Below, piece after piece: positions 1 to 18,279 of a stretch of 64,000 nucleotides of DNA. The translations under genes were made by a program, and so were the position numbers. The notes beneath the pieces are model-generated. The model was not told the DNA's origin. It was given only the letters and a program-made list of their open reading frames with translations, and ran no database searches. Source of the DNA: Xanthomonas indica (GTDB taxonomy: Bacteria; Pseudomonadota; Gammaproteobacteria; Xanthomonadales; Xanthomonadaceae); contig NZ_CP131914.1 of assembly GCF_040529045.1 (NCBI RefSeq), positions 124,001 to 188,000 of the forward strand. Reading direction: 5' to 3'. Every line of letters starts with the position of its first letter. Position 1 is the stretch's first letter.

Positions 1-661
1 GCGCGCGCAGCGCGCCGGCGCTGGTCCAGGCCTCGATCCGCGCACCGCCCCAGGCCGCCTGGATCAGCCCCATCGGCACTTTGACCGTCTTCTGCAGTTC
101 GCGCGCGAAGTAGAAGCAGGCGGCGGAAAACTCGCGCACCGTCTGCGGCGATGCGGGTTGCCACGCCACCGCAGCCGCGAACGCCTCCTGCGGCGTGACC
201 GCCGCGGCCTTGGGCACGGCGAACAGACGGATGCTCGGCTGCGTGGCCGCGGCCAGTTCGCGGCTCGCATCCAGCGCGCGCCACACCGGCAGCTCCATGT
301 TCGATTGCCCGGAACACAGCCAGACATCGCCCATCAGCACATCGCGCACGACCTGGCGCTCCTGTCCCGCGCGGACCGTCATGTCGTAAGGCCCACCGGC
401 GGCGATGGGCTTGAGCGTGGCACGCCAGCGGCCGTCGGCATCGGCGCGTGCGCTGACAGACTGCCGGGCGAAGGTCAGCGACACCGTGGCACCCGGCGCG
501 GCGTGGCCCCAGACCGGAATCACCCGGTCGCGTTGCAGCACGGCGTGGTCCTGGAACAGCGGATGCAGCAGCGGCGGCGCTGCGTGCTGCGCCATGCAGG
601 GGATCGCGCAACACCCCAAGGCCGCCGCCAGCAGCCGGCCGCTCCACGTCGTCGGCTTCAT
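1..661 (-). CDS. Sialate/acetylxylan O-acetylesterase family protein (partial, N-terminal part)
   Basis: About 220 N-terminal residues are in the window; the rest runs off the left edge. The start ATG overlaps the TGA of the alpha-glucuronidase gene (ATGA), so the two are translationally coupled. A signal peptide ends near AMA-Q at about residue 24. The motif WLCSGQSNMELP near residue 110 carries the serine of SGNH esterases of the sialate 9-O-acetylesterase family (PF03629). In this setting, directly after a GH67 gene, the likely substrate is acetylated (glucurono)xylan oligosaccharides rather than sialic acid; that is inference from context. The catalytic Asp/His block is outside the window. 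Periplasmic location is expected. Confidence 0.85.
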   Translation of the reverse strand, partial: MKPTTWSGRLLAAALGCCAIPCMAQHAAPPLLHPLFQDHAVLQRDRVIPVWGHAAPGATVSLTFARQSVSARADADGRWRATLKPIAAGGPYDMTVRAGQERQVVRDVLMGDVWLCSGQSNMELPVWRALDASRELAAATQPSIRLFAVPKAAAVTPQEAFAAAVAWQPASPQTVREFSAACFYFARELQKTVKVPMGLIQAAWGGARIEAWTSAGALRA

Positions 662-2802
662 CGTCCATCTCCGGGTGCGGAGGGAAATTGCAGGGCCTGG
701 TACCAGCCCAGCGGGTGCGGCGGCGCGGCTTCGCCTGCGGGCAATGGCCGCCCGCTCACCGACTGGAAATACGCCACGCTGGCATCGCGCCACCACTGCG
801 CTTCGCGCAACTGGATGCGCAGGAAGGCCGCCACCTGCGCATGTCGCTCGTCGTCCACCTTGCCGCGCAGGCCGTCCCAGGTGGCCTGCATGGCCTGCAC
901 CTGGCGCACGCCCTGCGTATAGCGCCCGACCAGCTCGTCCCACAATGGCCTTCCGGAGGCCATGCGGTGGTCCCACGGCACGTGGTGGAACCACAGCAGC
1001 AATGGCTCGGGCACCCGCGCCAGGTCGCCATACACGGCCGCCACCTCGGGCGCGTACTGGCCCACCGCATTGCTGCCGCGCGCGGTGCGATCGAAACCGA
1101 TGCCATTGCGGTCGGCACGGTGGTAGTACACCGACGTCCAGTCCGCGCGCGAGCCGCCGTCCACCCAGGGGCCAGGGCCGTAGTGGTGGCCGCGCGCCAT
1201 CAGGTGGTGCAGGCCCAATGGGGTCATGTAGTTCACCGCGGCCTCGCGCGAGCCCATCATCATCCCGACGATGGGCTGCACCACCTCGGACGCCGGCGAG
1301 AACGTCATCGCCGCCCATTCCGCGGCGATGGCGCGGGCGGAGCGGTGCGGATTCCAGGCGAGACGGCCGAACGCATACCAGTTGGCCTGGTCGAAGTGCG
1401 AGCCGCTCCAGGTGCGGTCGTTGCCGATGTTGGCGACGCCGGCGATGCCGGTCAGGGCGTGGCCTTCCAGCGAGCCGTCCACCACGTCCGCCACCGTGGA
1501 ACCCGCGCCGCGGGCGTGGGTGTCGGACTGCAGCACGTCCTCGTACAGCGGCCCCAGGTACACCAGGTGCGTGGCGAAGCCGAGGTACTCCTTGGTGATC
1601 TGCAACTCCAGCATCAGCGGCGTGCGCGGCATGGCGCCGAACAGCGGATGGAAGGGCTCGCGCGGCTGGAAGTCGATGGGGCCGTTCTTGACCTGCACGA
1701 TCACGTTCGGGCGGAAGGCGCCGTCGAGGCCGACGAACTCGGTGTACGCCTGCATGGCGCGATCCACCGGCACGCCGTGGGCGTAGACGAAGGCCCGCCA
1801 CATCACCACGCCGCCGTGCGGCGCCAGCGCATCGGCCAGCAGGTTGGCGCCGTCGGCATGCGAACGGCCGTAGTCCTGCGGGCCGGGCTGCCCTTCCGAA
1901 TTCGCCTTGACCAGGAAGCCGCCGAAATCCGGAATGCGCGCATAGATCTCATCGGCCTTGTCGCGCCACCAGCGCTGCACGGCCGGGTCGCGCGGGTCGG
2001 CGGTCTTCAGCCCACCCAGTTCGATGGGTGCGCTGAAGCGTGCGCTCAGGTACACGCGGATGCCGTAGGGCCGGAACACGTCCGCCAGCGCCGCGGCCTT
2101 GTCGAGGTAGGCCGGCGCCAGGCTCTGCGCGTTGGCGTTGACGTTGTTCAGCACCGTGCCGTTGATGCCGATCGAGGCATTGGCGCGCGCGTAGTCGGTG
2201 TAACGCGGGTCGCGCCACTCCGGCAGGCTCTGCCAGTCCCACAAGGAGCGGCCCGCATAGCCGCGCTCGACATGGCCGTCCAGGTCGTCCCAATGGTCGA
2301 GCACGCGCAACTGGATCCATGGCGACTCGCGCACCTCCAGCGTGTCCAGCAGTGTGCCGGTCTGCAGCAGCCGCAGCAGATGGAACACCCCGTAGAGCAC
2401 GCCGATGTCCCGGCGCGCGGCCACCAGCAGCACCGCATGCCCATCGATGCGAGTGCGCTTGAGCAGGTAGCCCTCCTCGCCCAGCGATGCGATCTCCTCG
2501 CGGAACGGCGCGAGCGCCGGCGACGACTGCGGCGTGCCCAGCACCACCGCGTGATCGCCGGTCGCCGCCGCCTGCAGCGCCGGCGTGCGCCCCAGCAGGC
2601 CGGTGAGGCCACGCACCAGTTCGTCGCGTGCCACGCGCTGCGTGGGCGTCCGCTCCGGCGCCACGACCTCGTCCAGGCGCACGCGCTCGTCCGCCGCGCG
2701 CGCGGCGCCTTGCGAGGGCACGTAACGCATCCACAGCGCCGCACCATCTTCCGCGCGCACGCTGCTCGCACAGGCCATCAGCCCCATGGCGACGCACGCC
2801 AT
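658..2802 (-). CDS. agu67A: Alpha-glucuronidase, glycoside hydrolase family 67
   Basis: The 714-residue product has the usual length for GH67 and removes 4-O-methyl-glucuronic acid from the reducing-end-distal xylose of xylo-oligosaccharides. Family motifs are visible: NSEGQPGP (acid Glu), KNGPIDFQ (Asp) and ELQITKEYLG (Glu), matching the catalytic Glu/Asp/Glu known for Cellvibrio GlcA67A. A hydrophobic N terminus ending VRAED suggests export to the periplasm; the segment MACVAMGLMAC could also be a lipoprotein signal. The chosen ATG gives that signal directly; the open frame continues upstream without a better start. It is divergent from the LacI gene at 2914 and heads a two-gene unit with the O-acetylesterase. 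The open frame also runs on antisense to the LacI gene, which is not real coding. Confidence 0.93.
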   Translation of the reverse strand: MACVAMGLMACASSVRAEDGAALWMRYVPSQGAARAADERVRLDEVVAPERTPTQRVARDELVRGLTGLLGRTPALQAAATGDHAVVLGTPQSSPALAPFREEIASLGEEGYLLKRTRIDGHAVLLVAARRDIGVLYGVFHLLRLLQTGTLLDTLEVRESPWIQLRVLDHWDDLDGHVERGYAGRSLWDWQSLPEWRDPRYTDYARANASIGINGTVLNNVNANAQSLAPAYLDKAAALADVFRPYGIRVYLSARFSAPIELGGLKTADPRDPAVQRWWRDKADEIYARIPDFGGFLVKANSEGQPGPQDYGRSHADGANLLADALAPHGGVVMWRAFVYAHGVPVDRAMQAYTEFVGLDGAFRPNVIVQVKNGPIDFQPREPFHPLFGAMPRTPLMLELQITKEYLGFATHLVYLGPLYEDVLQSDTHARGAGSTVADVVDGSLEGHALTGIAGVANIGNDRTWSGSHFDQANWYAFGRLAWNPHRSARAIAAEWAAMTFSPASEVVQPIVGMMMGSREAAVNYMTPLGLHHLMARGHHYGPGPWVDGGSRADWTSVYYHRADRNGIGFDRTARGSNAVGQYAPEVAAVYGDLARVPEPLLLWFHHVPWDHRMASGRPLWDELVGRYTQGVRQVQAMQATWDGLRGKVDDERHAQVAAFLRIQLREAQWWRDASVAYFQSVSGRPLPAGEAAPPHPLGWYQALQFPSAPGDGR

Positions 2803-3986: not shown

Positions 3987-6539
3987 TCACGCGCTCGGGC
4001 ATGCGACGGTGGTCTCCGCTTCGTTCAACGCAGCGAGCGCGACCCGCGACACCGAGAGCGTCATCGTGCCCGCCGTGGTCAACGCCCAGGGGCGGTCCAG
4101 CTTGCTCAGATCCGCGCCGGCCGCCGCCAGGCACTTGAGCGGCACGCCCACGCGCGTCCACTGGCCCACCGGCAGCGCCGCCAGCGCCGGCCCGATCGCC
4201 ACCCGCGCGGTGCAGCCGCTGCCGCAGCCGACCGCCAGCCACGCCTCGCCCTGCGGGGCGGCGTCCACCCGCAGCGTGGTCACCAGCATCAGGTCGCCGT
4301 TGCTCTCGCGCTGCAGATCCAGCGGCGTATGCGACTGCAGCGCGACCACCGCCTCGCGCTTGCCCGACCAGGCGAGGCGGCGGCCATCTTCCTGCGCCAG
4401 GTGGTCCACGCCGGTGACCTTGAGCAGTGCGCCATCGAGCGATTCCGGCACGCGGGTGACGGTCACGCCCTGTCCGGTGCTGCCTTCCAGGCGCAAGGCC
4501 ATGCCCGGGCCGGCCGCGCCGCGGGCGAAGAACACCCCGGCCGCGCCTTCGTTGCCGGTGAGGCCGGAGACCTCCGAGAGCTTGGCCAGATTGCCGTTGT
4601 CGGCGTAGCGCAGGCCGTAGCCGAAGGCGAACAGCGGGTCGTAGCCCTGCTGCCCCACGTTGTTGGCGTATTGCGTGGCCGTGCGCGGCCAACTGAAGCT
4701 CAGCTTGCCCTTGAAGTCGTGCTGCACGCCGCCGTTCGGGCTGCGCAACAGCACGTCGGCGATACCGGCGCCTTCCGAGCCCGGCAGCCACGCCGCCACG
4801 AAGGCATCGGCGGCATTGAGTTCGCGGTTGACCCACAGCGGGCGTCCGCTGAGGAACACTGCGACCACGGGAATGCCGTCGGCCTTGAGCCGCTTGATCA
4901 ACGCCAGGTCGGTGTCGTCGCCCGGCTTGTAGGCCAGGGTCGGCCGATCGCCCTGGAACTCCGCATACGGGTTCTCCCCGAACACCACCACGGCCACGTC
5001 CGGCTTGGTGGTGTACGTGCCGTCGACCGCCAGCACGGCCTCGCCGCCGGCGGCCTTGGCCTGCTGCGCGAAGCCCTCGTAGATGGTGTCCGCGTTCGGG
5101 AAGTCCTTGCGGGTGGTGCCGGTGCCCTGCCAGTTCAGCGTCCAGCCGCCGGCTTGCTTGCCGACGTCGTTGGCGCCGTCGCCGGCCACCAGGATGCGCT
5201 GCTTCGGCGACAGCGGCAGCACGCCGCCCTGGTTCTTCAGCAGCACCAGCGACTCGCGCACCGCCTGCCGCGCCACTGCGCGATGCGCCGGCGCACCGAT
5301 CAGCGCGAACTGGCCGCCGACCGCGCGCGCCGACGGCTTGCCCGCCTCAAACAGGCCCAGCCGCATCTTGACCCGCAGGATCCGCCGCACCGCATCGTCC
5401 AGGCGTTGCGGGGAGATGGTGCCGTTCCTGGCCGCCGCCAGCGTAGTGGTGTAGAAGCCCTTCCAACTGTCCGAGGCCATCGCCATGTCCAGGCCGGCAT
5501 TGATGGTGGCGGGGCAGTCGGTGGGCGTGCAGCCCTTGACCTGTCCGTGGCCGTTCCAGTCGCCGACCACGAAACCACCGAAGTGCATGCGCCCCTTCAG
5601 CGCATCGGTCAGATAGGCCTTGTGGCCGTGCATCTTTTCGCCGTTGACGCTGTTGAACGAGGCCATCGCGGTCTGCGCGCCCGCGGCGATGGCCGGCGGA
5701 TAGCCGGCGGCATGGATGCGCACCAGCTCGGCTTCGCCGATTTTGGTGTCGCCCTGGTCCCTGCCGTCGGTGGTGCCGCCATCGCCCAGGAAGTGCTTGA
5801 CCGAGGCGATCACATGGCGGCCATCGAGGAACGCCGGCGTCCCCACCTTGCCCTGCAGCCCCTCGACCATCGCCCCGGCGTAGCTGGCCACCACCTCGGG
5901 CGACTCCGAATAGCCCTCGTAGGTCCGCCCCCAGCGGTCGTCCTGCGGCACCGCCACGGTCGGCGCGAAGGTCCACTCCATGCCGGTGGCACGGGTTTCC
6001 AGCGCGGTGATTTCGCCGATCCGGCGCAGCAGCGCCGGGTTGCGGGTCGCGCCCAGGCCGATGTTGTGCGGGAACAGCGTCGCGCCGACGATGTTGCTCT
6101 GCCCGTGCACAGCATCGATGCCGAACAGCACCGGAATCGCCTTGCCGCCCTGCGACGTGTCCATCGACGCCGCATAGAACGCATCGGCCAGCGCCAGCCA
6201 TTCGGCCGGCGCGGCATCGTAGCGGCCGCCAGGATCGGAGTTGCCGCCGGCCAGGATCGATCCCAATCGATATGTGCGTACGTCCTCCGGGGTGAGGCTG
6301 CCGATATCGCCCTGCACCAGTTGGCCAACCTTTTCCTCCACCGTCATGGTGGCGATCAGGTCGGTGAGGCGCTGTTCCAGCGCGGGATCCTCGGGCAGCG
6401 GCCAGCGCACGCTGGGCCAAGGGCTGGCGTCCGCGCGGGCGGGCGCCGCGGCCTGGACGTCGCCCTTGCACACGGCAAGCGCGAGCAGGAGTGCGGCCAG
6501 CAGAGCGCCGGTATGGCGTGCGGAATGGGTGTCGGTCAC
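3987..6539 (-). CDS. Glycoside hydrolase family 3, exo-1,4-beta-glucosidase/xylosidase type, secreted
   Basis: The 850-residue protein carries a signal peptide (hydrophobic stretch LLAALLLALAVCKG). The GH3 N-terminal barrel shows TVEEKVGQLVQGD near the start, KHFLGDGGTTDGRDQG, and the nucleophile motif GFVVGDWNG. The GH3 C-terminal domain includes VLPLSPKQRILVAGDGAND. A further roughly 170 C-terminal residues form an extra domain like that of ExoP/CelD-type glucan glucohydrolases. The GTG start is supported by AAGGAG 7 bases upstream. It is last in the xylB-xylA-GH3 unit, 22 bp after xylA. Operon position points to xylo-oligosaccharides as substrate, but the subfamily includes exo-beta-glucosidases, so specificity is left open. 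Location is periplasm or outer membrane. Confidence 0.9.
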   Translation of the reverse strand: MTDTHSARHTGALLAALLLALAVCKGDVQAAAPARADASPWPSVRWPLPEDPALEQRLTDLIATMTVEEKVGQLVQGDIGSLTPEDVRTYRLGSILAGGNSDPGGRYDAAPAEWLALADAFYAASMDTSQGGKAIPVLFGIDAVHGQSNIVGATLFPHNIGLGATRNPALLRRIGEITALETRATGMEWTFAPTVAVPQDDRWGRTYEGYSESPEVVASYAGAMVEGLQGKVGTPAFLDGRHVIASVKHFLGDGGTTDGRDQGDTKIGEAELVRIHAAGYPPAIAAGAQTAMASFNSVNGEKMHGHKAYLTDALKGRMHFGGFVVGDWNGHGQVKGCTPTDCPATINAGLDMAMASDSWKGFYTTTLAAARNGTISPQRLDDAVRRILRVKMRLGLFEAGKPSARAVGGQFALIGAPAHRAVARQAVRESLVLLKNQGGVLPLSPKQRILVAGDGANDVGKQAGGWTLNWQGTGTTRKDFPNADTIYEGFAQQAKAAGGEAVLAVDGTYTTKPDVAVVVFGENPYAEFQGDRPTLAYKPGDDTDLALIKRLKADGIPVVAVFLSGRPLWVNRELNAADAFVAAWLPGSEGAGIADVLLRSPNGGVQHDFKGKLSFSWPRTATQYANNVGQQGYDPLFAFGYGLRYADNGNLAKLSEVSGLTGNEGAAGVFFARGAAGPGMALRLEGSTGQGVTVTRVPESLDGALLKVTGVDHLAQEDGRRLAWSGKREAVVALQSHTPLDLQRESNGDLMLVTTLRVDAAPQGEAWLAVGCGSGCTARVAIGPALAALPVGQWTRVGVPLKCLAAAGADLSKLDRPWALTTAGTMTLSVSRVALAALNEAETTVACPSA

Positions 6540-6561: not shown

Positions 6562-7896
6562 TCAGCGCAGCAGGTACTGGTTGATCAGGTTCTCGTAGCG
6601 CTCCTGGCGGCCGCTGATCTGCCGCGGCTCGCCGCCCTTCGCGCCCAATGCCGCCAACTCGGCGAGGCCGAGCGCGCCACGCGCGAACTGCTCGCCGGCG
6701 CCAATGTCGAAGCTGGCATAGCGCTCCTGGCGCCACTGTTCCCAGGGCGAGTCGTTGAGCAGCGCATGGGCCACTTCCAGCCCGCGGGCGAAGGCGTCCA
6801 TGCCGCCGATGTGGGCAACGAACAGATCCTCCAGGTCGGTGGATTCGCGACGCACCTTGGCGTCGAAGTTCAGGCCGCCCTCCAGCCCGCCCTGGCGCAG
6901 CACCACCAGCATGGCGCCGACGGTGTCGTACAGGTCGGTGGGGAACTGGTCGGTATCCCAGCCGTTCTGCGCGTTGCCGCGGTTGGCGTCGATGCTGCCG
7001 AGCAGGCCATGGTCGGCCGCGACCTGCAGGTCGTGTTCGAAGGTGTGTCCGGAGAGCGTGGCGTGGTTGGCCTCGATGTTGAGCTTGAAATCCTTGTCCA
7101 GGCCGTGCGCCTTCAGGAAGCCCGCCACCGTCGCGCTGTCGAAGTCGTACTGGTGCTTCATCGGCTCCATCGGCTTGGGCTCGATCAGGAAGTTGCCCTT
7201 CAGGCCGATGCTGCGGCCGTAGTCGCGCGCCATGGTGAGGAAGCGCGCGAAGTGCTCGAGTTCGCGCTTCATCTGCGTGTTGACCAGCGAGGCGTAGCCT
7301 TCGCGGCCGCCCCAGAACACGTAATGCTCGCCGCCCAGCTCCACCGTCGCCTCCAGCGCCGCCTTGACCTGCACGGCAGCGCGCGCCACCACGGCGAAAT
7401 CGGGATTGGTCGCGGCACCGTTCATGTAGCGCGGATGCGAGAACAGATTGGCCGTGCCCCACAGCAGCTTCATCCCGGTCGCGTCCTGGCGCGCCTTGGC
7501 CAGGCCGACCATGTGCTTGAGGTTCTTTTCGTACTGCCCGGCATCGTCGGCATCCGGCGCCAGGTCGACGTCGTGGAAGCACCAGTACGGCACGCCGAGC
7601 TTGGTGAAGAACTCGAACGCCGCATCCACTTTGGCCTCGGCGCTGGCCATCGGCGCGCCGACCTCCCAGGGGAAGTGGCGCGTACCCGGGCCGAACGGAT
7701 CCTGCCCGGCGTTGCAGAAGGTGTGCCAGTAGCAGACCGCGAAGCGCAGATGTTCCTGCATGGTCTTGCCGCCGACGACCTTGTTGGCGTCATAGACCTT
7801 GAAGGCCAATGGATTGTCCGAGCCGCGGCCTTCGAAGGGGATGCGACCGATGCCGGGGAAGTATTCCTTGGCGCCGATGAAGGGTTGGGTGTGCAT
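6562..7896 (-). CDS. xylA: Xylose isomerase
   Basis: XylA converts D-xylose to D-xylulose in the cytoplasm. At 444 residues it has the class II length. Visible motifs are CFHDVDL (residues 106-112, catalytic His108 and Asp111), VFWGGREGY (193-201), the metal-ligand run EPKPMEP, and [19 protein letters not shown] tetramer with two divalent metals per subunit is expected from the family. It sits 43 bp downstream of xylB and 22 bp upstream of the GH3 gene, all leftward, so the three are probably co-transcribed. The ATG has AGGA about 10 bases upstream. Confidence 0.97.
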
Positions 7897-7939: not shown

Positions 7940-9442
7940 TCAGCCGCGCAACAGCGGCGTCAGGGCGTCGAGATGACGCAGGAAACGCGCATAGGCCGCG
8001 GCATAGGCCTGGGTGCGCGCCGGATCCGGGCGGGCCGACAGCTGCGGATCCACCGCCACGTGCCGCTGCGCGATGTCGGCGATGGAGGCGGCATCGCCGC
8101 GTGCCAGGCCCACGGCCCACAGCGCCTGCAAGGCCGCACCGAAGGCCGCGCCTTCCGGCTGCGTGGGCACGTCCACCGGCAGGCCGAACACATCGGCCAC
8201 CAGTTGCCGCCACGCGCCGCTGTTGCTGCCGCCGCCGGTCAGCACGATGCGCTCGAAGTGCATGCCGGCACGCACGAAGGCGTCGAAGCCGTACTTCAGG
8301 CTGTACGTCGCCCCTTCCATCGCCGCGCGATAGAGATGGGCCGGGGTCATGTTGGCGGTGTCCAGGCCCGCCAGCACGCCCTTGCCCAGCGGCAGGTCCG
8401 GCGTGCGCTCGCCATTGAGGAACGGCAGCATCACCAGTCCGTCGGCACCGGGCGCGGTGGCGTGCAGGTGCGCATCGCCGTCACGAGTGCTGAAACCGAA
8501 GGCGGCGGCGACCTGCTCGGTCGCCACGGTGCAGTTCATCGTGCAGATCAGCGGCAGCCAGCCGCCGGTGGAGGAACAGAACGCGGCCCACGCGCCGTCC
8601 GGGTCGACCACCGGCGTGTCGGAATAGGCGAACAGGGTGCCCGAGGTGCCCAGACTCATCGCCAGGCGACCGGGCACGACGCAGCCGGTGCCGATGGCCG
8701 CCATCATGTTGTCGCCGCCGCCGACGGCGACCTTCAGCGTCGCCGGTACGCCAAGCAGGCTGGCCGCGGCCGGGTCGATGTCGAACAGGGCATCGGGTGC
8801 GGCCAGGCGCGGCAGGCACTCCGCCAGATCGCGCTGCGGATCGGTGGCGCGCAGCAGCTCGGTCGACCAAGTGCGCGTGCGCACGTCCAGCCAGCCCGTG
8901 CCCGACGCGTCGCCGTATTCGCAGAAGCGCTGGCCGGTCAGCACGAAGTTGAGGTAATCGTGCGGCAGCAGAATGGTGGCGAGGCGCGCATAGGCCTCGG
9001 GCCGGTGGGTCTTGGTCCACGGCAGCTTGGACGCGGTGTAGCCGGTGAGGATCGGATTGCCCGCCAGTGCGATGGTGCGCGCCGTGCCGCCGACCGCGTT
9101 CATGATCTGCACGCACTCGGCCGAGGTGCTGGTGTCGCACCACAGCTTGGCCGGTGCCAGCACCTCGCCTGCCGCATCGACCGGAACGAAGCCGTGCTGC
9201 TGGCCCGAGACCGCCAGCGCGCCGAGGCGCGACCGCAGCGAAGGATCGATCGCCCGGAAGCAGGCCTGCATGGCCGCCACCCAGTCCGCCGGCCGCTGTT
9301 CACGGCTGCCATCGGCGGCGGCATGCAGATCCAGCGGCGCACTGCTGCTGGCCACGACGCTGCGCCCGACCGGGTCGTAGACCACGACCTTCAGGCTCTG
9401 CGTCCCCGCATCGATTCCAGCCACCAATCCCCTATCTTCCAC
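7940..9442 (-). CDS. xylB: Xylulokinase (FGGY family)
   Basis: XylB phosphorylates D-xylulose to xylulose 5-phosphate for the pentose phosphate pathway. The 500 residues have the FGGY actin-like fold. The N-terminal phosphate motif is [16 protein letters not shown] (residues 9-24), the substrate loop region SGQQHGFV lies near residue 84, and the C-terminal ATP-site motif is [17 protein letters not shown] start is used, 16 bp downstream of the palindromic box at 9458-9471, which would therefore sit on the promoter or leader. It is first gene of xylB-xylA-GH3. The neighbouring halogenase-like gene ends 52 bp upstream on the same strand, so read-through from the receptor operon is also possible. 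Confidence 0.96.
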
Positions 9443-9457
9443 GTCGTCTCACCTTCT

Positions 9458-9471
9458 AGTTAGCGCTATCA
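9458..9471 (-). promoter_or_regulatory. xyl-box-like LacI operator before xylB
   Basis: The minus strand reads TGATAGCGCTAACT, a near-perfect palindrome around AGCGCT. It resembles the xyl box TGGTAGCGCTAACA described for xylan-induced genes of Xanthomonas campestris (from memory) and the perfect palindrome at 16280-16293. It lies in the 52-bp gap between the halogenase-like gene and xylB. Confidence 0.7.
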
Positions 9472-9494: not shown

Positions 9495-11024
9495 CTACGC
9501 CACAACAACGCTCCGCGGCCAGACGTCCGGGGCCGCCTTGCAATAGCGTTCGATGAACTCCGCCTGCGAGGGCATCGCCGCGCTGGCCTGCTGCAGCGGC
9601 TGCCGGATCCGCGTCAGCAGCGTGCGCAGATCCGCATCGCCCATGGCGGCGGCCAACGGATGCGGCGGCCCGGGCTGGATCCCCTGGCCCATCAACACGC
9701 TGGTCCACGAATCCACGCGGAACAGTTCGCCGGGGTCCTGCCAGGCGTGCGCACGTTCGCGCCAGGCGCGCAGCCGAATCGCCAGCGACTCGGGCAGCGC
9801 CATCTCGCGGCACGCCTTCCACATCGGTTCGTCGCGCTGGGTCGCGTGGTAGTGCAGGATGATGAAGTCGCGCACGTGCTCCATCTCCTGGCGGCTGACC
9901 GTGTTGTACAGCTCCACCAGTGCCGGACTGATGCCGTCGCTCGGAAACAGCTGGATCAGGCGCACCACGGCGCTGATGGTCAGATGGATGCTGGTCGATT
10001 CCAGCGGCTCGATGAAGCCACTGGCCAGGCCCAACGCCACCACGTTCTTGTTCCACGCCTGCAACCTGCGCCCGCTGCGGAACGGCACCAGCCACGGGTC
10101 GCGCAGCGGCGGACCGTCGACGTCGCGCAGCAGCTTGGCGTGCGCCTCGTCGTCGGACATGTGGCGGCTGGAGAACACCAGCCCGCACCCGACCCGGTGC
10201 TGGAGCGCGATATGCCAGCGCCACCCGGCCTCGTGCGCGATGGCACGGGTATACGGCACCGGCGGCGCGACCGCCTCGGTCTGCACCGCCACGGCGCGAT
10301 CGCTGGGCAACCAGTCGCGCCAGTCTTCGTAGCCGGTGTGCAGCGTCTGCTCGGTCAGCAGGCCACGGAAGCCGGTGCAGTCGATGAACAGGTCGCCCTC
10401 GATGACCTGCCCGTCGTCCAGCAGCAGCGACGCGATGGCGCCGTCATGCGCATGCTGCCGAACCTCGCGGATCTGCCCTTCCACCCGGCGCAGGCCGTAG
10501 CCTTCGGCCTTCTTGCGCAGGAACTTCGCGTACAGCGCGGCGTCGAAGTGATAGGCGTAGTTGACCTGCGGCTGCGTCTCCAGCGAGAACCGGTCCGCAT
10601 GCGAGGCCACGCTTTCCAGGCAGAAATCGCCCAGGTCCGACGGCATGCCGCGGCGCAGGCTGTCCAGCCAGAAATGATGGAACGGCGTGGCCCAGGTGCC
10701 CTGCCCGATGGTGCCGAACGGATGGATGAAGCGATCGCCGGGGCGACGCCAGTGCTCGAAGGAAATCGAGAGCTTGAAGGTGCCGGCCACCGCGCGCAGG
10801 AACTCCTGCTCGTCGATCTGCAGGAAGCGGTGGAACATGCGGATCGGCGGCACGGTCGATTCGCCGACGCCCACGGTGCCGATCTGCTCGGACTCCACCA
10901 GGGTGATGTCCAGGCGATCGCGGAACTGGTGCGCCAGCGCGCAGCCGGCCAGCCAGCCTGCGGTGCCGCCGCCGGCGATGACGACCTTGCGGATGCGTCC
11001 GTCTGGTGTGGTGGCCAGGGTCAA
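9495..11024 (-). CDS. Tryptophan-halogenase-family flavoprotein of a TonB-receptor locus
   Basis: This is a 509-residue protein of PF04820. The FAD-binding motif VVIAGGGTAGWLAG starts near residue 14 and GVGESTVPPI follows near residue 60. The stretch FKLSISFEHW holds a lysine where tryptophan halogenases have the catalytic lysine. WRWHIALQ resembles the family's WxWxIP motif but lacks the proline. A TTG start is chosen because GGGAG lies 7 bases upstream; the frame continues upstream into the end of the cupin gene without a ribosome site. There is no secretion signal. It is fourth in TonB receptor-SapC-cupin-halogenase, an association known from carbohydrate loci of Caulobacterales and Xanthomonadales with no assigned substrate. 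Halogenation itself is unproven; it may be a different flavin oxidation. Confidence 0.85.
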   Translation of the reverse strand: MTLATTPDGRIRKVVIAGGGTAGWLAGCALAHQFRDRLDITLVESEQIGTVGVGESTVPPIRMFHRFLQIDEQEFLRAVAGTFKLSISFEHWRRPGDRFIHPFGTIGQGTWATPFHHFWLDSLRRGMPSDLGDFCLESVASHADRFSLETQPQVNYAYHFDAALYAKFLRKKAEGYGLRRVEGQIREVRQHAHDGAIASLLLDDGQVIEGDLFIDCTGFRGLLTEQTLHTGYEDWRDWLPSDRAVAVQTEAVAPPVPYTRAIAHEAGWRWHIALQHRVGCGLVFSSRHMSDDEAHAKLLRDVDGPPLRDPWLVPFRSGRRLQAWNKNVVALGLASGFIEPLESTSIHLTISAVVRLIQLFPSDGISPALVELYNTVSRQEMEHVRDFIILHYHATQRDEPMWKACREMALPESLAIRLRAWRERAHAWQDPGELFRVDSWTSVLMGQGIQPGPPHPLAAAMGDADLRTLLTRIRQPLQQASAAMPSQAEFIERYCKAAPDVWPRSVVVA

Positions 11025-11037
11025 GGCGATGCTCCCA

Positions 11038-12057
11038 TCAGCGGTTGAGTCGCGCCAGCAACTGCGCACGCACGCGGCGCGCACGCGTTTCGTCGAACGG
11101 CGCCAGCTCGCCGCGCGCGGCCTCAGGCAGGTGCTGCGCTGCGCGTTCGCCCGGACCGAACACGTAGTAATCGAAGATCTGCGCCCACGCCTGCTTCTCG
11201 CGTGCCGGCAGATCGCGCAGCGCCCACATCGCGTGCTGCAGCGCCGTCAGCGGCGAGGGCAGGAAGGCCGGCGCACTGCGCCACCAGTAGTTCACCAGCA
11301 CATTGAACGGCTCAAGGCTGCGCACGTGGTGCCACCACATGCTCGGGATGAACAGCGCATCGCCCGGCTCCAGCTCGACGTGCTGCGCGCTGGCGAGGGC
11401 ATCGCGGAAGCGCGGATGCCGCGTGAAGTCGGGGCGGTCGACATCCACCACGCTGACCACCTGCCCGCCCGGCGTGGGGTCCAGCGGCCCCGGATACAGG
11501 TTGTCGATCTGCTCCGGCGGAAACAGGGTGAAGCGGCGCCGGCCCACGGCACAGCAGGCCAGGTTGTCCGGCGTGTCGAAATGGCAGGAGGCGATGACGC
11601 GGTTGCCGATCCAGATGCTCGCCGGCGCGTCGATGCCCTGCCCGGCCAGGCCGGCGTCGTTGGCCTGCGCGAACCCCGGCAGCGCCCGCTCGATCGGCAG
11701 CGACGCGACATAGTAGGTGGGCGGCCGCGGATCCTCGAAGGTGGCGGCGATCGCGTCCAGCACCTGCGTGAGCGGTCCACGCCGGACCTCGACATTCAAC
11801 TGGGTGAAATCGGCGTTGTAGAACGGACGGCCCTCGATCCCGGGTTCGCCGAAGGAATACGGAACCGGCACACCCGCATCGAAACCACGCAGGTACGCCA
11901 GCGCCTCCTGCGTGGAGCGCAGCCCGGCCTGGACCAGCCCCCAGTCGCGCGCGATGCCGCGCAACACCACCGGCTCCCCGGCCGCCACCAGGTCCTGCAC
12001 TGGCAGCGCGGTGGGCTGCACGCCCTCCAGTGTCCGCATGGCCCCGCCGTCCGGCAT
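11038..12057 (-). CDS. Cupin-like / JmjC-type Fe(II) oxygenase family protein
   Basis: The 339-residue cytosolic protein is of the cupin_8 (FIH/JmjC) type. The facial-triad motif appears as CHFDTPDNL (His, Asp) near residue 163 and WWHHV (His) near residue 243, with GDALFIPSMWWHHV as the typical second strand. Such folds usually bind Fe(II) and 2-oxoglutarate and hydroxylate proteins or small molecules; the substrate here is unknown. Its ATG lies 2 bp after the SapC-like stop and the halogenase-like TTG begins 13 bp after its own stop, so the three form a tight operon downstream of the TonB receptor. Confidence 0.82.
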   Translation of the reverse strand: MPDGGAMRTLEGVQPTALPVQDLVAAGEPVVLRGIARDWGLVQAGLRSTQEALAYLRGFDAGVPVPYSFGEPGIEGRPFYNADFTQLNVEVRRGPLTQVLDAIAATFEDPRPPTYYVASLPIERALPGFAQANDAGLAGQGIDAPASIWIGNRVIASCHFDTPDNLACCAVGRRRFTLFPPEQIDNLYPGPLDPTPGGQVVSVVDVDRPDFTRHPRFRDALASAQHVELEPGDALFIPSMWWHHVRSLEPFNVLVNYWWRSAPAFLPSPLTALQHAMWALRDLPAREKQAWAQIFDYYVFGPGERAAQHLPEAARGELAPFDETRARRVRAQLLARLNR

Positions 12058-12059
12058 GG

Positions 12060-12818
12060 TCAGTTCCTGCCCGCCGCGACGGCGGCATCCTGCAATCGCA
12101 GGCGTCGCTGCTTTTCGGCGATCAGCCGCCGCATGTTGTGCAGCGACGCCAGCATCAGGAACGCCCCTTCCAGATAGCCGGCGCGGTTGAGCGCAGCCAG
12201 CGCGGTGCCGTCCAACTGAGACAGGCGCTCACGGTCGATCGCGTGCAGGCCACTGACGCCGACCCGATGCTGCGCATCGACTTGCACGTCGAGCGTCACC
12301 GGCTGGATCAGGCCGTGCGCATCGAGCGCGGCGAACATCTCCGCGCCGAAGGCATGGCCCTCGTGGATGCCGCGCAGCACCGTGGCGATGTGATCGAGAT
12401 AGGCGGTGTTACCCCCTTGCGGCAGGAACACCGGCTCCCCCTGCATCGCGGTCACCCGCGGATGCTCCATGTCCACGTGCAGGACCGCCTCCTGGCTGAG
12501 CACGCCATCGATCCGCTGCTCCTGGAATCCGATCAGGAACGGCCCCTTGGCGGCCGCACCGGGCAGATACGAGGCCGCCCAGCGCCGCTCCTGCAGGAAC
12601 AGGTTCTCGTGCTGCTCGAACCCCAGCAGCGCCACCGACTGCCACGCGCCTGTCGCCGGGTCCTTGCGCAGGAAGAGCGGATATTCCCGCTGCAGCTCGG
12701 CGAACTCGCTCGGATAGGCCGGCACCATGCCCACCGCGTCGCCGAACTCCGGCCCGAAGTCGGTGGCCACGCGCAGGTCGCGGTGCGCGATGTTGTTGAG
12801 CATTTCGTAACGCGGCAT
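12060..12818 (-). CDS. SapC-like protein (PF07277)
   Basis: This 252-residue soluble protein begins MPRYEMLNNIAHRDLRV, typical of the SapC family found beside TonB receptors and tryptophan-halogenase-like genes. There is no signal peptide or membrane segment. The conserved FPLFLRKDP-like stretch here reads YPLFLRKDPATG, followed by LLGFEQHENLFLQ. AGGAG lies 11 bases before the ATG. The frame is open upstream into the receptor gene, but no start there has support. Biochemical function is unknown for the family; the name comes from a Campylobacter surface-layer locus and need not reflect its job here. Confidence 0.82.
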   Translation of the reverse strand: MPRYEMLNNIAHRDLRVATDFGPEFGDAVGMVPAYPSEFAELQREYPLFLRKDPATGAWQSVALLGFEQHENLFLQERRWAASYLPGAAAKGPFLIGFQEQRIDGVLSQEAVLHVDMEHPRVTAMQGEPVFLPQGGNTAYLDHIATVLRGIHEGHAFGAEMFAALDAHGLIQPVTLDVQVDAQHRVGVSGLHAIDRERLSQLDGTALAALNRAGYLEGAFLMLASLHNMRRLIAEKQRRLRLQDAAVAAGRN

Positions 12819-12913
12819 CGTGTTGCGCACTCCTGGTTGCAGCCTTGCACGGCGCGCCGCCGCGACAGCGGCGGCGTCCGTGGCGACACGCGAAGAGAAG
12901 CTCCTCGCCTTCT

Positions 12914-15900
12914 TCAGAACCTGTAGCGAACACCCAGCATGTAGCGCGGACTCTGGTCGGCCAGCTTCACGATCATCTGCGAGGTACGCGAGCGCCAGCG
13001 CACGTCCTCGCCGGTCAGGTTGATCGCTTCCAGGCCGAACGACCAGTTGTCGTTCAACGTGTAGTTCACGCTGAGGTCCCACTGCTCGTAGGGTTCCACA
13101 TAGTACGGATTGCGGCTGGTGCCCTGGTTGGCCAGGATCAGGTACTGGTCGCGCCAGTTCCAGGCCAGGCGTACCGACCAGCCGTACTTCTCGTACATCA
13201 GCACCGCATTGGCGGTGTCGCTCAGGCCGGTGAGCGCGAACTGGTCGATGCCCGGATCGCCGCCGTTGTCGTAGCCCACGTCGCCCTTGACGATGGTGTA
13301 GTTGGCGAGGACGCCGAACCCGGTGTCGCCGAAGAAGTACTGCCCGCCGAGTTCCCAGCCGTGCAGCTTGGCCTGGTTCTGGTTGATCGGGCGGTTGACG
13401 TTGAACTCGTACAGCGGGTCGTCGGCCTCGCCGTACAGATCGTAGGCCGCTTCGGTCGCCAGCACCTGCGCGCCGCTACCGTTGTAGGCGGCCAGGCCGG
13501 CCGGGTTGTTGCGCAGCAGGGCCAGCGCGGTGAACAGCGAGGTATCGTTGGCCGAACAGGCCGCTGCGTTGGCCGGGCCGACCTGGGCGAGACAGGCGCC
13601 GCTGGTGAGGAAGGCCAGTGCCGTCCTCGCGTCCGGGCCGGAGGTCGGATCGCGCAGGCCGTACAGATTCTCCTGCACCACGGTGTTGCCGATGAAGTTG
13701 TTGACCGACTTGTTCCAGTAGGTCACCGACAGGTAACTGGCGTCGGCGAAGTACCACTCCAGCGCCAGGTCGAGGTTGTCGGACTCCAGCGGCTTCAGCG
13801 CCGGGTTCTGCGCGGTGCCGCTGGCCCGCGAGGACGGGTCGATCAGCACCGAGCCGAACGGCTGCTGCGCCCCGGGGCCGGCATAGAGGTTGCCGATCGG
13901 CGCGCGCGCGATGCTCTTGCCGAACGAGACGCGGCCCTTCAGCGTGTCGGTGAGGTCGATGCTGAAATCGAGGTTGGGCAGGATATAGCTGTAGGTGGTC
14001 TTTTCGCTGAAGGGTTGCTGCGCGTTGGACAGCACCACGCGGAAGTCGTTGTTGGACTGCCACTCGATCGCTTCGGGGGTGGCGATGACCGAGGTCGAGA
14101 CCACGTCGGTGGTTTCGTAGCGCACGCCCAACCGCGTATTGGTACGCCGACCGGCCAACTCGCCATCCAGTTCCACCTGGAAGTAAGCCGAGCGGGTCTT
14201 CTCCTCCACGAAATTGTCGGCGGCGCGTTGCGGGCTCACGCCCAGGCCGACGCCGTACTGGCCGGCTGCCCATTCCGCGAGCCGGCCGGCATCGCCCCGC
14301 CATGCGGGCCAACTGGTGCCGCCGTAGTCGTCGAACAGGCCGATGATGTTGACCGGCTGCATCAGGTTCATCAGCCCGCCGGCGGTATCGCGGTCGACAT
14401 TGGCCACGCCCCAGTCGCCCAGGGTGGAATACGCCTCGGCGGCCTGGATGCGGTGGGTGGTCGACTTGCTGCTGTCCACGCCGAACTGGAAGCGGCCCTG
14501 GTCGAAGCTCCACTCGCCGTCCACGCGCGCCTGCTTGATCTGGCTGATCTGGCTCTGCGAGTTGACGCGCAGCACCTGCGTGCCGATCTCGCCCGGCACG
14601 AAGCCCGGGTTGACCACGCCGTTGACGTTGGCCGCGGCAGCGGCGTCGCTCGGATACCAGACCTGGGCGCCGATCGGCAGGCCGTTGTTGAAGTTCAACT
14701 CCTGCACCCAGGAGCCGCCGCAGTGCGGGCCGGTGGTGCAGTTGTTGGTGCCGGCAATGCTCATGAAGAGAGAACCGCCGCCGGTCAGCGGATCGTTCGG
14801 GCGGCTTTCGTTCTTCGAGTCGTGCGCGTCGAAGCTCAGCTTGAGCCGGTCGGTCACGTTCCACACCGCGTTCAGGCCGAGCGAGCCCAGCTTGTACTTC
14901 TGCATGCTGCGTTGCTGCTCGAGGCCGAAATCCTTGGTGCCGGCGATTTCGCGGATGTAGGTCGGCACCGCCACCGCGCCGCTGGTGTCGAAGGTCACGT
15001 CGGTGTAGTTGCTGTTCTGCAGCCACATGCCCTGCTCGCCACGATTCTCGGTGATCTCGTTGGTCGAGTAGGTGTAGTCCAGGGTCAGGGTCAGGCTGTC
15101 GGTGGGCGCGAACTGCAGCACCGCCTGGCCGTTGACGCGCTCGCGTTCGAACTCGGAGAACGCATAGCGCAGATCGTTCGGGCGCGCGTACAGCGCACCG
15201 ATCTGCGGCGCGTTGACCACGGTCGGGTTGCCGGGCAGCGAGCCGGTCCACGGCTGCACGTTCCAGTAGTTCTCGGTGGCCTGCACCGAGCCGCCCTTGC
15301 GCTTCTGGTAGCTCGCGCTGACGCCGACACCGAAGGTCTTGTCCGGATTGCTGTAGCTGAAGATGCCGGACAGTTCCGGGGTCAGGTCGTTGTCGAACGG
15401 CTGGCTGCGGTCGGAGACCGCCTTGGCGCCGGCACTGGCGACGATGCCCTGGTGGTCGAACGGACGCGAGGTCAGGATGTTGATGGTGGCGCCGATGCCG
15501 CCGCTGGGCACGTTGGCCTGGCTGGTCTTGTAGACCTCGATGCCGTTGATCGCTTCGGCGGCCAACTGGGCGAAGTTGAAGGCGCGGGTGCCGCCGTCGA
15601 CGCCACCGATGGCGACCTGCCCGGCGGCGCCGAACGCATCGGCGCCCGGCATCTGCCGCCCGTTGAGCGTCACCATGTTGAACTGCGGGCCGAAGCCGCG
15701 CGCGGTGACCTGCGCGCCTTCGCCATCGCGCCGCTCGATGGAGATGCCGGTGATGCGCTGCAAGGATTCGGCCAGGTTGGTGTCCGGGAACTTGCCGATG
15801 TCCTCGGCACTGATGGCATCCACCACGCCCGCGGAATCGCGCTTGATGTCCATCGCCTGGCTGAGGCTGTTGCGCAGGCCGGTGACCTGGACGGTATCCA

Positions 15901-16045
15901 GTTGGGTCGGGCTGCTCTGGGCCTGCTGCTGGGCGGGCGGCGCCGGCGTCGCGGCGTCCTGTGCGAAGGCGGGATTGATGACCAGCACGCCGCCGACGAA
16001 CGTGAACATGGCCCTGGATTTGAACTTCGCCAGCGCCCGGCTCAT
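12914..16045 (-). CDS. TonB-dependent receptor, Caulobacter type, for plant-polymer oligosaccharides
   Basis: This is a 1043-residue outer-membrane active transporter. The signal peptide is cleaved after about residue 28 (NPAFA-Q), and a Pro/Gln/Ala linker precedes a TonB-box/plug beginning LDTVQVTGLRNS. The plug contains ESLQRITGISIERRDGEG, VTARGFGPQFNMVTLNGR and a long beta-barrel follows, ending in the outer-membrane signature YMLGVRYRF with terminal Phe. No FecA-type signalling extension is present, so it should act as transporter only. It heads the leftward unit with SapC-like, cupin and halogenase-like genes. A 293-bp region separates it from the divergent second lacI and contains a palindromic operator. 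Likely cargo is xylo-oligosaccharides, inferred from the locus. ATG 16045 is the first in-frame ATG before the signal peptide. Confidence 0.93.
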   Translation of the reverse strand: MSRALAKFKSRAMFTFVGGVLVINPAFAQDAATPAPPAQQQAQSSPTQLDTVQVTGLRNSLSQAMDIKRDSAGVVDAISAEDIGKFPDTNLAESLQRITGISIERRDGEGAQVTARGFGPQFNMVTLNGRQMPGADAFGAAGQVAIGGVDGGTRAFNFAQLAAEAINGIEVYKTSQANVPSGGIGATINILTSRPFDHQGIVASAGAKAVSDRSQPFDNDLTPELSGIFSYSNPDKTFGVGVSASYQKRKGGSVQATENYWNVQPWTGSLPGNPTVVNAPQIGALYARPNDLRYAFSEFERERVNGQAVLQFAPTDSLTLTLDYTYSTNEITENRGEQGMWLQNSNYTDVTFDTSGAVAVPTYIREIAGTKDFGLEQQRSMQKYKLGSLGLNAVWNVTDRLKLSFDAHDSKNESRPNDPLTGGGSLFMSIAGTNNCTTGPHCGGSWVQELNFNNGLPIGAQVWYPSDAAAAANVNGVVNPGFVPGEIGTQVLRVNSQSQISQIKQARVDGEWSFDQGRFQFGVDSSKSTTHRIQAAEAYSTLGDWGVANVDRDTAGGLMNLMQPVNIIGLFDDYGGTSWPAWRGDAGRLAEWAAGQYGVGLGVSPQRAADNFVEEKTRSAYFQVELDGELAGRRTNTRLGVRYETTDVVSTSVIATPEAIEWQSNNDFRVVLSNAQQPFSEKTTYSYILPNLDFSIDLTDTLKGRVSFGKSIARAPIGNLYAGPGAQQPFGSVLIDPSSRASGTAQNPALKPLESDNLDLALEWYFADASYLSVTYWNKSVNNFIGNTVVQENLYGLRDPTSGPDARTALAFLTSGACLAQVGPANAAACSANDTSLFTALALLRNNPAGLAAYNGSGAQVLATEAAYDLYGEADDPLYEFNVNRPINQNQAKLHGWELGGQYFFGDTGFGVLANYTIVKGDVGYDNGGDPGIDQFALTGLSDTANAVLMYEKYGWSVRLAWNWRDQYLILANQGTSRNPYYVEPYEQWDLSVNYTLNDNWSFGLEAINLTGEDVRWRSRTSQMIVKLADQSPRYMLGVRYRF

Positions 16046-16279: not shown

Positions 16280-16293
16280 TGATAGCGCTATCA
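16280..16293. promoter_or_regulatory. Perfect 14-bp palindrome TGATAGCGCTATCA, LacI-type operator
   Basis: This is a perfect dyad with the central AGCGCT typical of LacI-family operators. It lies between the TonB receptor start (235 bp away) and the second lacI start (73 bp away), so it could control both directions, including autoregulation. It shares its core with the box before xylB. Confidence 0.75.
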
Positions 16294-16365
16294 TCACGTC
16301 ACGGCGCAGACTACGCACCCCCGATATCGCTTGTCATCATGCGTCGCAACAAAGGAACGCATTCC

Positions 16366-17427
16366 TTGAAGAGCACCCCCAAAACGCTGCGTCGAAAAGC
16401 GAGCACCATCACCATCGACGACGTGGCGGCGCATGCCGGCGTCTCGCCCATGACCGTCTCGCGCGTCACCCATGGCCATGCCGGCGTGCGCGAGAGCACC
16501 CGCGAGCGGGTGATGCGCAGCGTGCGCGCCCTGGACTACCGGCCCAACCCGGCCGCCAGCGCCCTCGCCGCGGCGCAACACCTGTGCATCGCGTTGATCT
16601 ACACCAATCCCAGCTCCAGCTATCTGCGCGAACTGCTGGTCGGGGCACTGCGCGGATCCACCCGTGCAGCGGCGCAACTGGTGATCGCCACCTGGGATGG
16701 CCTGGGTCCGCGGGCACGCCGCGCTGCCGCGCAGACGCTCTGCAACAGCGTGGCGGGGGTGATCCTGCCGCCGCCGCTGTGCGAATCGAAGGCCATCGTC
16801 GGCGCCTTCGTCGAGGCCGGCATCCCCGTCGTCGCCATCGCGTCCAGCCGGTTCAGCGACAAGGTCTCCTGCGTGCGCATCGATGACCGCCGCGCCAGCC
16901 ACGACATGGTGTCGCATCTGATCGCGCACGGGCACACCCGCATCGGCTACATCACCGGCGACCCGAACCAGACCGCCAGCGCGCACCGCTGGCAGGGCTA
17001 CCGCGATGCCCTGGCGGAGGCGGGCATCGGCTACGACGCCGCGCTGGTGCAAGCCGGCGACTTCACCTATCGCGCCGGACTGGAGGCGGCCGAGCGGCTC
17101 TTGGCGCTGCAGCCGCGCCCCAGCGCGATTTTCGCGAGCAACGACGACATGGCCTCGGCGGTGGTATCGGTGGCGCATCGCCGGCGCCTGAAGGTGCCGG
17201 AGGATCTGTCGGTGGTGGGGTTCGACGACACGTCGGCATCGACGATGGTGTGGCCGGAGCTGACCACCATCCATCAGCCGGTGGCGGACATGACCGATGC
17301 CGCCATCGACCTCCTGTTACGCGAGATCCGGCAGGCCGCCGGGGCGGAGCGCGCCAGCGTCAATCACGTGGTACCGCACCGCTTGATCACACGCGATTCG
17401 GTGTCGCGGCCGCTGTTGGATCGCTAG
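16366..17427 (+). CDS. LacI-family transcriptional regulator, paralogue of the one at 2914
   Basis: The 353-residue repressor is clearly homologous along its full length to the regulator at 2914-3972. Its helix-turn-helix is ITIDDVAAHAGVSPMTVSRV, and shared blocks include QQHLCIALIYTNPSSSYLRELLVG and FDDTSASTMVWPELTTIHQP. TTG 16366 has AAAGGA 9 bases upstream, exactly as in the paralogue; ATG 16339 is in frame nine codons earlier but lacks a ribosome site. It is divergent from the TonB receptor and flanks the other end of the locus from its twin. Effector is probably a xylose or xylo-oligosaccharide/uronate derivative; this is inference. Confidence 0.88.
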   Translation: MKSTPKTLRRKASTITIDDVAAHAGVSPMTVSRVTHGHAGVRESTRERVMRSVRALDYRPNPAASALAAAQHLCIALIYTNPSSSYLRELLVGALRGSTRAAAQLVIATWDGLGPRARRAAAQTLCNSVAGVILPPPLCESKAIVGAFVEAGIPVVAIASSRFSDKVSCVRIDDRRASHDMVSHLIAHGHTRIGYITGDPNQTASAHRWQGYRDALAEAGIGYDAALVQAGDFTYRAGLEAAERLLALQPRPSAIFASNDDMASAVVSVAHRRRLKVPEDLSVVGFDDTSASTMVWPELTTIHQPVADMTDAAIDLLLREIRQAAGAERASVNHVVPHRLITRDSVSRPLLDR

Positions 17428-17509
17428 CGTCATTGGATGCGGGCTGGAGGACGGCGCACGGCCGCTGCGTCCCACGCATTGCGCACAAGCGCACCGCCGT
17501 GCAGCGCAT

Positions 17510-17614
17510 TTGCTGTTGCTGTTGCTTCGGCTGTTGCTGTTGCTTCGGCCGTTGCCGTTGCCCCGGCTGCCGCTGTTGCTTTGGCTTTGGCTTTGGCTGT
17601 TGCTGTCGCTTTTG
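17510..17614. repeat. Low-complexity GTTGCT/TTCGG/TTTGG tract
   Basis: The tract alternates TTGCTGTTGC, TTCGGC and TTTGGC units. A shorter mirror of it (AGCAACAGCC, AAAGCC) occurs at the outer edge of the right arm of the inverted repeat, so it belongs to the same composite repeat. Frames across it give only Val/Ala/Leu runs and are not credible genes. Confidence 0.75.
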
Positions 17615-17848
17615 ACTTACCGGGTTCCCTTCCGAAGCGGCGAATCAGGCGGGAAAAACCCGAAGGGCGGCGTACATGGATGTACGCCGTCCGCGGCAGG
17701 GGCAGGATGCCCCTTCCGCGGATCCCGTCTGGTTCGCGGACCCGGAGCGCGCAGCGCGGAGGGCGCGTAGGCAGGGCGCGCTTTCTTTTGGTTACCTTTT
17801 CTTTGCGCGAGCAAAGAAAAGTAACTCGCCCGCAAGGGCGAAAGCCTT
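17575..17848 (+). repeat. Left arm of a large inverted repeat
   Basis: This arm of about 275 bp matches the reverse complement of 18007-18279 almost throughout. Shared blocks include TTTTGACTTnCCGGGTTCC, GGCAGGGGCAGGATGCCCC, ACCCGGAGCGCG and CTTTCTTTTGGTTAC. The arm itself holds smaller dyads: GTACATGGATGTAC, AGGGGCAggatgCCCCT and TTTTCTTTGC...GCAAAGAAAA. No protein-like frame is shared between the arms. Confidence 0.85.
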
Positions 17849-17907
17849 TAAAGCTTTTGCTGTTGCTACTGCTGTTGATTCAAGTTTGTCTGTCGGACGA
17901 GAAGATC

Positions 17908-17975
17908 TGTAGGAGCGGCTTCAGCCGCGACAGCGAGAGTCCATTGTGCCTGTCGCGGCTGAAGCCGCTCCTACA
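17908..17975. repeat. REP hairpin (GTAGGAGCGGCTTCAGCCGC type), loop of the inverted repeat
   Basis: Two inverted copies of the REP unit GTAGGAGCGGCTTCAGCCGC are separated by about 20 bases, forming a long hairpin. The same unit occurs at 22333-22400 and 63313-63381. It resembles REP/BIME elements mobilised by RAYT-type transposases; no such transposase gene is in the window. Confidence 0.9.
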
Positions 17976-18006
17976 ATTCAGCCATGGCGGCAGCATCTTC
18001 AAGAGC

Positions 18007-18279
18007 AAAGCTTTCGCCTTGCGGCGAGTCACTTTCTTTGCTTGTGCAAAGAAAAGTAACCAAAAGAAAGCACACCCTGCCTCGCGCCCTCCGCGCTAAC
18101 GCGCTCCGGGTCCGCGTCCAGCCCGGGGATTCGCGGAAGGGGCATCCTGCCCCTGCCGCGAACGGCGCACGTCCTTGTGCGCCGCCCCTTCGGGGTTTTT
18201 CCCCGGGCTGGCCGCCGCTTCGGAAAGGAACCCGGCAAGTCAAAAGCGACAGCAACAGCCAAAGCCAAAGCAACAGCCG
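18007..18279 (-). repeat. Right arm of the large inverted repeat
   Basis: This is the reverse-complement partner of 17575-17848, with about 158 bp between the arms. It carries the same internal hairpins, for example CTTTGCttgtGCAAAG near 18035-18055. Together with the spacer it fills most of the 1.08-kb gene-free gap 17428-18507; nothing else is recognisable there. Confidence 0.85.

Follow-up and report, generated by a model that had tools for sequence, protein, structure and literature searches.

Flavoenzymes acting on tryptophan within polypeptides, such as MibH and QhpG, provide the model for a polypeptide tryptophan modification, and QhpG and LodB are flavoenzymes of protein maturation. 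The proximity of tryptophan halogenase genes to TonB receptors has been noted in the literature, and this neighborhood may already be known. The solved halogenases Xcc4156 and BrvH are described as having an open active site and as halogenating indole but not free tryptophan; in the accessible text of both reports their native substrate is given as not known, and the authors propose peptides and draw the comparison with MibH (PMC7336383, PMC5945002). Xcc4156 is reported as a brominase and shares only 26% identity with MibH (PMC7336383), and another halogenase gene is reported to lie upstream of the BrvH gene (PMC5945002). The term "TonB" has no occurrence in the accessible text of either paper (PMC7336383, PMC5945002). 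On the side of sugar uptake, XCC4120 of the Xanthomonas xylan CUT locus is reported to be induced by xylan, xylose and arabinose, and the word "halogenase" is absent from the accessible text of that report (PMC1790865). Both the sugar receptor locus and the Xcc4156/BrvH-type halogenase are known; the present locus is a variant in which the two are combined, in a conserved manner, with SapC and an FIH-like oxygenase. In a literature search that covered subscription journals thinly, no paper on the SapC–cupin–halogenase trio was recognized among the matches listed.

The window, a stretch of 64,000 nucleotides at positions 124001-188000 of a 4.81-Mb single-contig Xanthomonas indica genome, contains the following features.

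658..2766, minus strand: GH67 alpha-glucuronidase, start approximate
3987..6539, minus strand: GH3 glycosidase (ORF and profile)
6562..7896, minus strand: xylose isomerase xylA (TIGR02630, 671 bits)
7940..9442, minus strand: xylulokinase xylB (TIGR01312, 504 bits)
9458..9471: near-copy of TGATAGCGCTATCA with 2 mismatches, between the halogenase gene and xylB
9495..11024, minus strand: flavin-dependent halogenase (PF04820) of the BrvH/Xcc4156 type, TTG start (ORF and profile)
11038..12057, minus strand: Cupin_8 protein (PF13621), predicted Fe(II)/2-oxoglutarate oxygenase (ORF and profile)
12060..12818, minus strand: SapC family protein (PF07277), 252 aa (ORF and profile)
12914..16045, minus strand: TonB-dependent receptor of the TIGR01782 family, 1043 aa, signal-like N-terminus (ORF and profile)
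14060..14062, minus strand: codon of receptor Trp662 (721 in ORF numbering), candidate site
16280..16293: palindrome TGATAGCGCTATCA, putative LacI operator, between the receptor gene and lacI
16339..17427, plus strand: LacI family regulator, oriented divergently to the receptor gene; start set by eye

The four central genes run on the minus strand in the order TonB-dependent receptor, SapC, Cupin_8 and flavin-dependent halogenase, with start codons at 16045 (ATG), 12818 (ATG), 12057 (ATG) and 11024 (TTG), respectively, which leave intergenic gaps of 95, 2 and 13 bp. The gene order, coordinates and gaps given in the initial annotation proved exact to the base when set against ORFs, profiles and start codons. 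The receptor matches TIGR01782 (TonB-Xanth-Caul) at 775 bits (cut-off 310). The xylB, xylA, GH3 and GH67 genes follow on the 3′ side of the halogenase gene, and the divergent LacI regulator lies 5′ of the receptor. By profile, the locus contains GH67, two GH3 enzymes, xylose isomerase, xylulokinase and two LacI regulators, which bears out the xylan setting named in the initial annotation. With a TonB receptor, sugar enzymes and a sugar regulator, this is by gene content a TonB-dependent carbohydrate (CUT) locus, and it resembles the Xanthomonas xylan CUT locus (XCC4120 region) in its TonB receptor, LacI-type regulation and xylan genes when compared by locus type. On the 3′ side of lacI, positions 17437-18100 of the window are of low complexity, one frame reading as Ala/Val-rich repeats.

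The 14-bp palindrome TGATAGCGCTATCA at 16280-16293 is the sole exact copy in the genome. Allowing two mismatches, the genome yielded 4 sites, versus 3 for a control pattern; the second site, at 9458-9471 before xylB, is weak by count, being supported by position and not by statistics. An exact TGATAGCGCTATCA box also lies 5′ of the receptor in L152 and L158, a TGGTAGCGCTACCA box lies 5′ of those in L161 and L170, and in several loci of the beta-glucan branch (e.g. L081, L097, L115, L131 and L140) the boxes are instead of the TGTAAGCGCTTACA type. The stretch examined contained no palindrome of at least 12 bp for 14 of 41 receptors. A xyl-box-like pattern gave 5 matches against 2.48 expected, a count reached in 9 of 100 shuffles, and a scan for promoters and terminators returned 0 promoters and 7 terminator-like sites, versus 5.3 expected.

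The halogenase matches the Trp_halogenase profile PF04820 at 624 bits (cut-off 21), and its closest solved relatives are Xcc4156 (6Y1W; 542 bits), 9LUQ (485 bits) and BrvH (6FRL; 438 bits). The FAD motif GxGxxG and the catalytic lysine, both already noticed in the initial annotation (the lysine as possibly catalytic), are present as GGGTAG and within GTFKLSI, and the catalytic glutamate (EPLEST) is kept as well. This Lys and Glu are shared with Xcc4156 and BrvH, and each is found in 57 of 60 aligned relatives. The WxWxIP motif reads GWRWHIAL, retaining both Trp residues and the Ile, so that the sole change is Pro to Ala, whereas the motifs of Xcc4156 and BrvH end in Pro. The motif had been pointed out earlier as altered; the substitution is real, but it is ordinary variation, as the last position is Pro in only 26 of 60 aligned relatives, the others having Gly (20), Ala (8), Ser (3) or Asp (3), and Ala and Pro interchange among the close relatives of this halogenase. 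Given that Pro is widely replaced and alternates with Ala, the altered motif is no sign of a dead enzyme, and a degenerate halogenase was ruled out by the intact catalytic residues. According to the accessible text of one report, a YHG-type motif binds free tryptophan in PyrH and SttH (PMC8269204). No such motif aligned in the present halogenase, which in this respect is like Xcc4156 and BrvH and does not class with the free-tryptophan halogenases. The genome also encodes a second full-length halogenase, directly behind a TonB receptor in a LacI-receptor-halogenase locus (L151:2038-10916). That receptor belongs to a different family (OMP_b-brl_4, CarboxypepD_reg), and there is no SapC or cupin in the vicinity; the position behind a receptor counts in favor of the receptor as the target.

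The cupin matches Cupin_8 (PF13621) at 244 bits. The HxD...H iron triad reported in the initial annotation is complete, consisting of His159, Asp161 and His243; the first two are invariant in 32 of 32 aligned rows, and His243 is so wherever a row extends far enough (one is truncated). The nearest solved relatives are FIH and JMJD5, JmjC protein hydroxylases that share the triad, and FIH aligned with the cupin profile over the catalytic core with an E-value of about 6e-27. Unlike FIH, the cupin has an invariant arginine, Arg174, at the place of the 2-oxoglutarate lysine of FIH. Among named relatives, the closest cupins are those of Xanthomonas sp. F10 (98%) and NCPPB 1128 (95%), followed by Stenotrophomonas, in which the S. 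rhizophila cupin is 87% identical. The genome of Caulobacter vibrioides, taken as a control, gave matches to SapC, Cupin_8, the halogenase family and TIGR01782.

SapC matches PF07277 at 217 bits (cut-off 28.9). We recognized no catalytic signature in it, sequence and profile searches returned no PDB relative, and profile comparison gave no link to the cupin or to DUF6445. The latter family (PF20043) is a fourth partner, located downstream of the cassette in 32 of 80 cupin-relative loci and recurring also at L079:12952-13680, L133:6188-6895 and L166:13469-14179. Its residues H121, D123, H213 and R231 are invariant in nine rows, and we read these HxD...H...R columns as those of a putative second Fe(II)/2-oxoglutarate oxygenase; a profile search against PDB and the cupin returned nothing and did not confirm this reading.

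Genes of G+C-rich loci were called with a codon-based caller, and surveys were centered on each small protein. Among 100 SapC-bearing loci, the window included, a cupin was present in 32, and all 32 of these had a receptor. The gene order was receptor-SapC-cupin-halogenase in 20, an extra halogenase lay behind the receptor in 11, and one was cut by a contig end. Full cassettes with two distinct halogenase types occur in L079, L081, L082, L097, L115, L129, L144, L154, L156, L157 and L162; in such two-halogenase cassettes, a WDIG-motif type lies between receptor and SapC, and an I[PAG] type behind the cupin. The cupin-centered search gave 29 matches in 15 of 249 genomes: 15 in SapC-cupin-halogenase order, seven others with a halogenase, and three with a receptor only. 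The remaining four, which lacked both a halogenase and a receptor in the surrounding 1.5 kb, count against the receptor as the target, and the other cupins, like the 32 of 32 above, count for it.

The halogenase-centered search gave 47 matches in 14 of 200 genomes, and the flanks of 30 were examined. Nine of these were in SapC-cupin-halogenase order and 15 more had a receptor within 1.5 kb (five on the other strand). Four of the remaining six were viewed more widely, which revealed three receptors by profile and one adjacent ORF that was receptor-like by eye only; of the last two, L245 lies directly behind the complete cassette of its genome and L255 has DUF6445 only. The trio or a profile-confirmed receptor therefore accompanies 27 of the 30 halogenases, again in favor of the receptor, the chance rate of a neighboring receptor being estimated at roughly 5% from 36 receptor-profile matches in 4.81 Mb. 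The best 80 named cupin relatives, nearly all from Xanthomonadaceae and hence not independent, have SapC-cupin-halogenase in 80 of 80 cases and the receptor upstream in 79, the other lying near a contig end. These results indicate that the four-gene arrangement is conserved far beyond chance.

The SapC family is present in 138 of 398 genomes at the phylum level and in 27 of 79 at the family level, and 57 of the 100 SapC-bearing loci are without any partner, so that SapC need not be receptor-specific, which counts against the receptor as the target. Where the module receptor is absent (60 SapC loci), 57 had no recognized receptor in the stretch examined. The scatter away from receptors that the initial annotation had named as adverse to its proposal is thus absent for the cupin and the halogenase, but present for a large separate SapC branch. 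In this branch (L094, L109, L124 and others), apart from receptors, 15 of the 60 loci have the same gene immediately upstream on the same strand, at a median distance of 4 bp (representative, L094:10491-11975). A phage link was also considered and dropped, since the only matches were a single weak one and a halogenase family of generic type.

The sugar genes around the cassette vary. Of the 40 loci with the module receptor, 22 have GH3 and 21 have LacI. Among the Pfam families listed for 78 neighbor proteins, the window-like branch has GH43 (6) and FGGY kinases (4), and the other full-cassette branch (84 proteins) has GH1 (7), glucokinase (4), GH94 (2-3) and GH16 (2), so that full cassettes also adjoin beta-glucan/cellobiose genes. 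A further branch, which lacks the cupin and retains SapC and the halogenase, sits among chitin/GlcNAc genes (GH20, SIS, BadF-type kinase and amidohydrolase). Neighboring glycosidases differ from locus to locus, and the receptor is the constant neighbor in the surveys. Whatever the sugar, the cassette is linked to receptors and not to xylan, and a xylan-specific role was rejected on account of the related cassettes beside other glycan genes and, in part, of the other palindromes.

The 32 cupin-linked receptors fall within one clade of 35 (support, 0.977), every member of which has an adjacent halogenase or trio gene. W662 (721 in ORF numbering) is present in 35 of 35 clade members, 0 of 28 controls and 79 of 79 named relatives, and barrel topology suggests, as a guess, that it lies in an outward loop. 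Other receptor Trp residues are as conserved as W662, which counts against it as the target, and since cassette and receptor clade coincide, W662 is no proof of the target and may reflect ancestry; as residues diagnostic of the cassette, W662 and the others are confounded with the clade. The receptors of L186 and L187 have an adjacent halogenase but also close relatives that lack it; no Trp among the six sites listed distinguished them, which also speaks against the receptor. Receptor and partner trees gave distance correlations of 0.84-0.96 with a nearest-neighbor agreement of only 9-12 of 31, so that co-evolution was uninformative; the low agreement counts against the receptor as the target.

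Given an open-site halogenase and a relative of protein hydroxylases behind receptors of varied sugars, modification of a polypeptide is the best explanation, and we infer that the halogenase and the oxygenase would act on polypeptide side chains and not on a free small molecule. To the locus we assign a tentative reading, with a probability of about 0.35, as a LacI-type regulated operon for uptake of xylan products, in which the TonB receptor is accompanied by a cytosolic cassette modifying it or a linked polypeptide. SapC, the cupin and the halogenase have no signal-like N-terminus by eye and should therefore act in the cytosol. The most economical substrate would be the adjoining receptor, modified in the cytosol before it folds and is exported, and Trp residues conserved in its clade, W662 among them, would be candidate sites. 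SapC may serve to bind the substrate or to present it, and the modification would fine-tune the receptor's ligand binding or its stability. Of the three options in the initial annotation, namely receptor, cargo or plant phenolic, a proposed modification of the receptor has held up best; the trio is a unit tied to TonB receptors, and its catalytic residues are intact. The full form of this scheme is rather doubtful: a widespread system by which bacteria would halogenate and hydroxylate their sugar receptors ahead of export, for example at a conserved Trp such as W662, with SapC as an adaptor presenting the substrate and DUF6445 as a further oxygenase.

Possible, though still doubtful, is a role in small-molecule chemistry, in which an indole- or phenol-type metabolite, whether a signal, a deterrent or cargo, would be produced, altered or broken down by the cassette, would be switched on together with the sugar genes and would pass through or by the receptor. 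The known activity of the halogenase relatives is on indole, free indole being halogenated in vitro by Xcc4156 and BrvH (PMC7336383, PMC5945002), which counts against the receptor as substrate, and three proteins without signal-like N-termini would equally suit cytosolic small-molecule chemistry. However, the low activity of BrvH on indole led its authors, in the accessible text, to hold that indole is not the natural substrate (PMC5945002), and the neighbor families listed (25 of 84 and 25 of 70) include no recurring biosynthetic pathway; what recurs is sugar genes and DUF6445. Furthermore, in the two genomes examined that carry two cassettes, the sets have stayed diverged (38-54% identity across the four proteins), which a separate set for each receptor would predict but which would be redundant for one metabolite.

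It is unlikely that the target is another protein or peptide, such as SapC, a TonB/ExbD partner or one of the secreted sugar-locus enzymes, with the receptor only a co-regulated neighbor. An open active site and an FIH-like oxygenase would suit any polypeptide, and SapC is conserved in the cassette with no catalytic motif recognized, but it is the receptor that stays constant while the glycosidases vary between loci. Less probable again is that the halogenase-like protein is a flavin monooxygenase hydroxylating a protein side chain. The WxWxIP-type motif is said, in the accessible text, to suppress monooxygenase activity (PMC5945002) and here ends in Ala, and there are weak NCBIfam matches to QhpG (27 bits, cut-off 240) and LodB (20 bits, cut-off 400). 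By this score the protein differs from QhpG. Against a monooxygenase, both motif Trp residues, Lys and Glu are retained, Ala and Pro interchange among close relatives, and the closest solved relative, Xcc4156, is the reported brominase (PMC7336383). The plant phenolic on xylan, another option of the initial annotation, fits the glucuronoxylan-type locus of the window but is highly improbable, given that full cassettes also adjoin genes for beta-glucan/cellobiose and that the SapC-halogenase form occurs with chitin/GlcNAc genes, settings in which ferulate is not expected, that several of the palindromes differ, and that there was no feruloyl esterase among the window proteins scanned (part of the window).

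The tie of Xcc4156/BrvH-type halogenases to TonB sugar receptors narrows the search for their substrate to receptors or receptor-linked polypeptides. If the receptor is indeed modified, this would be a post-translational halogenation of an outer-membrane transporter, and it would add a layer of control over nutrient uptake.
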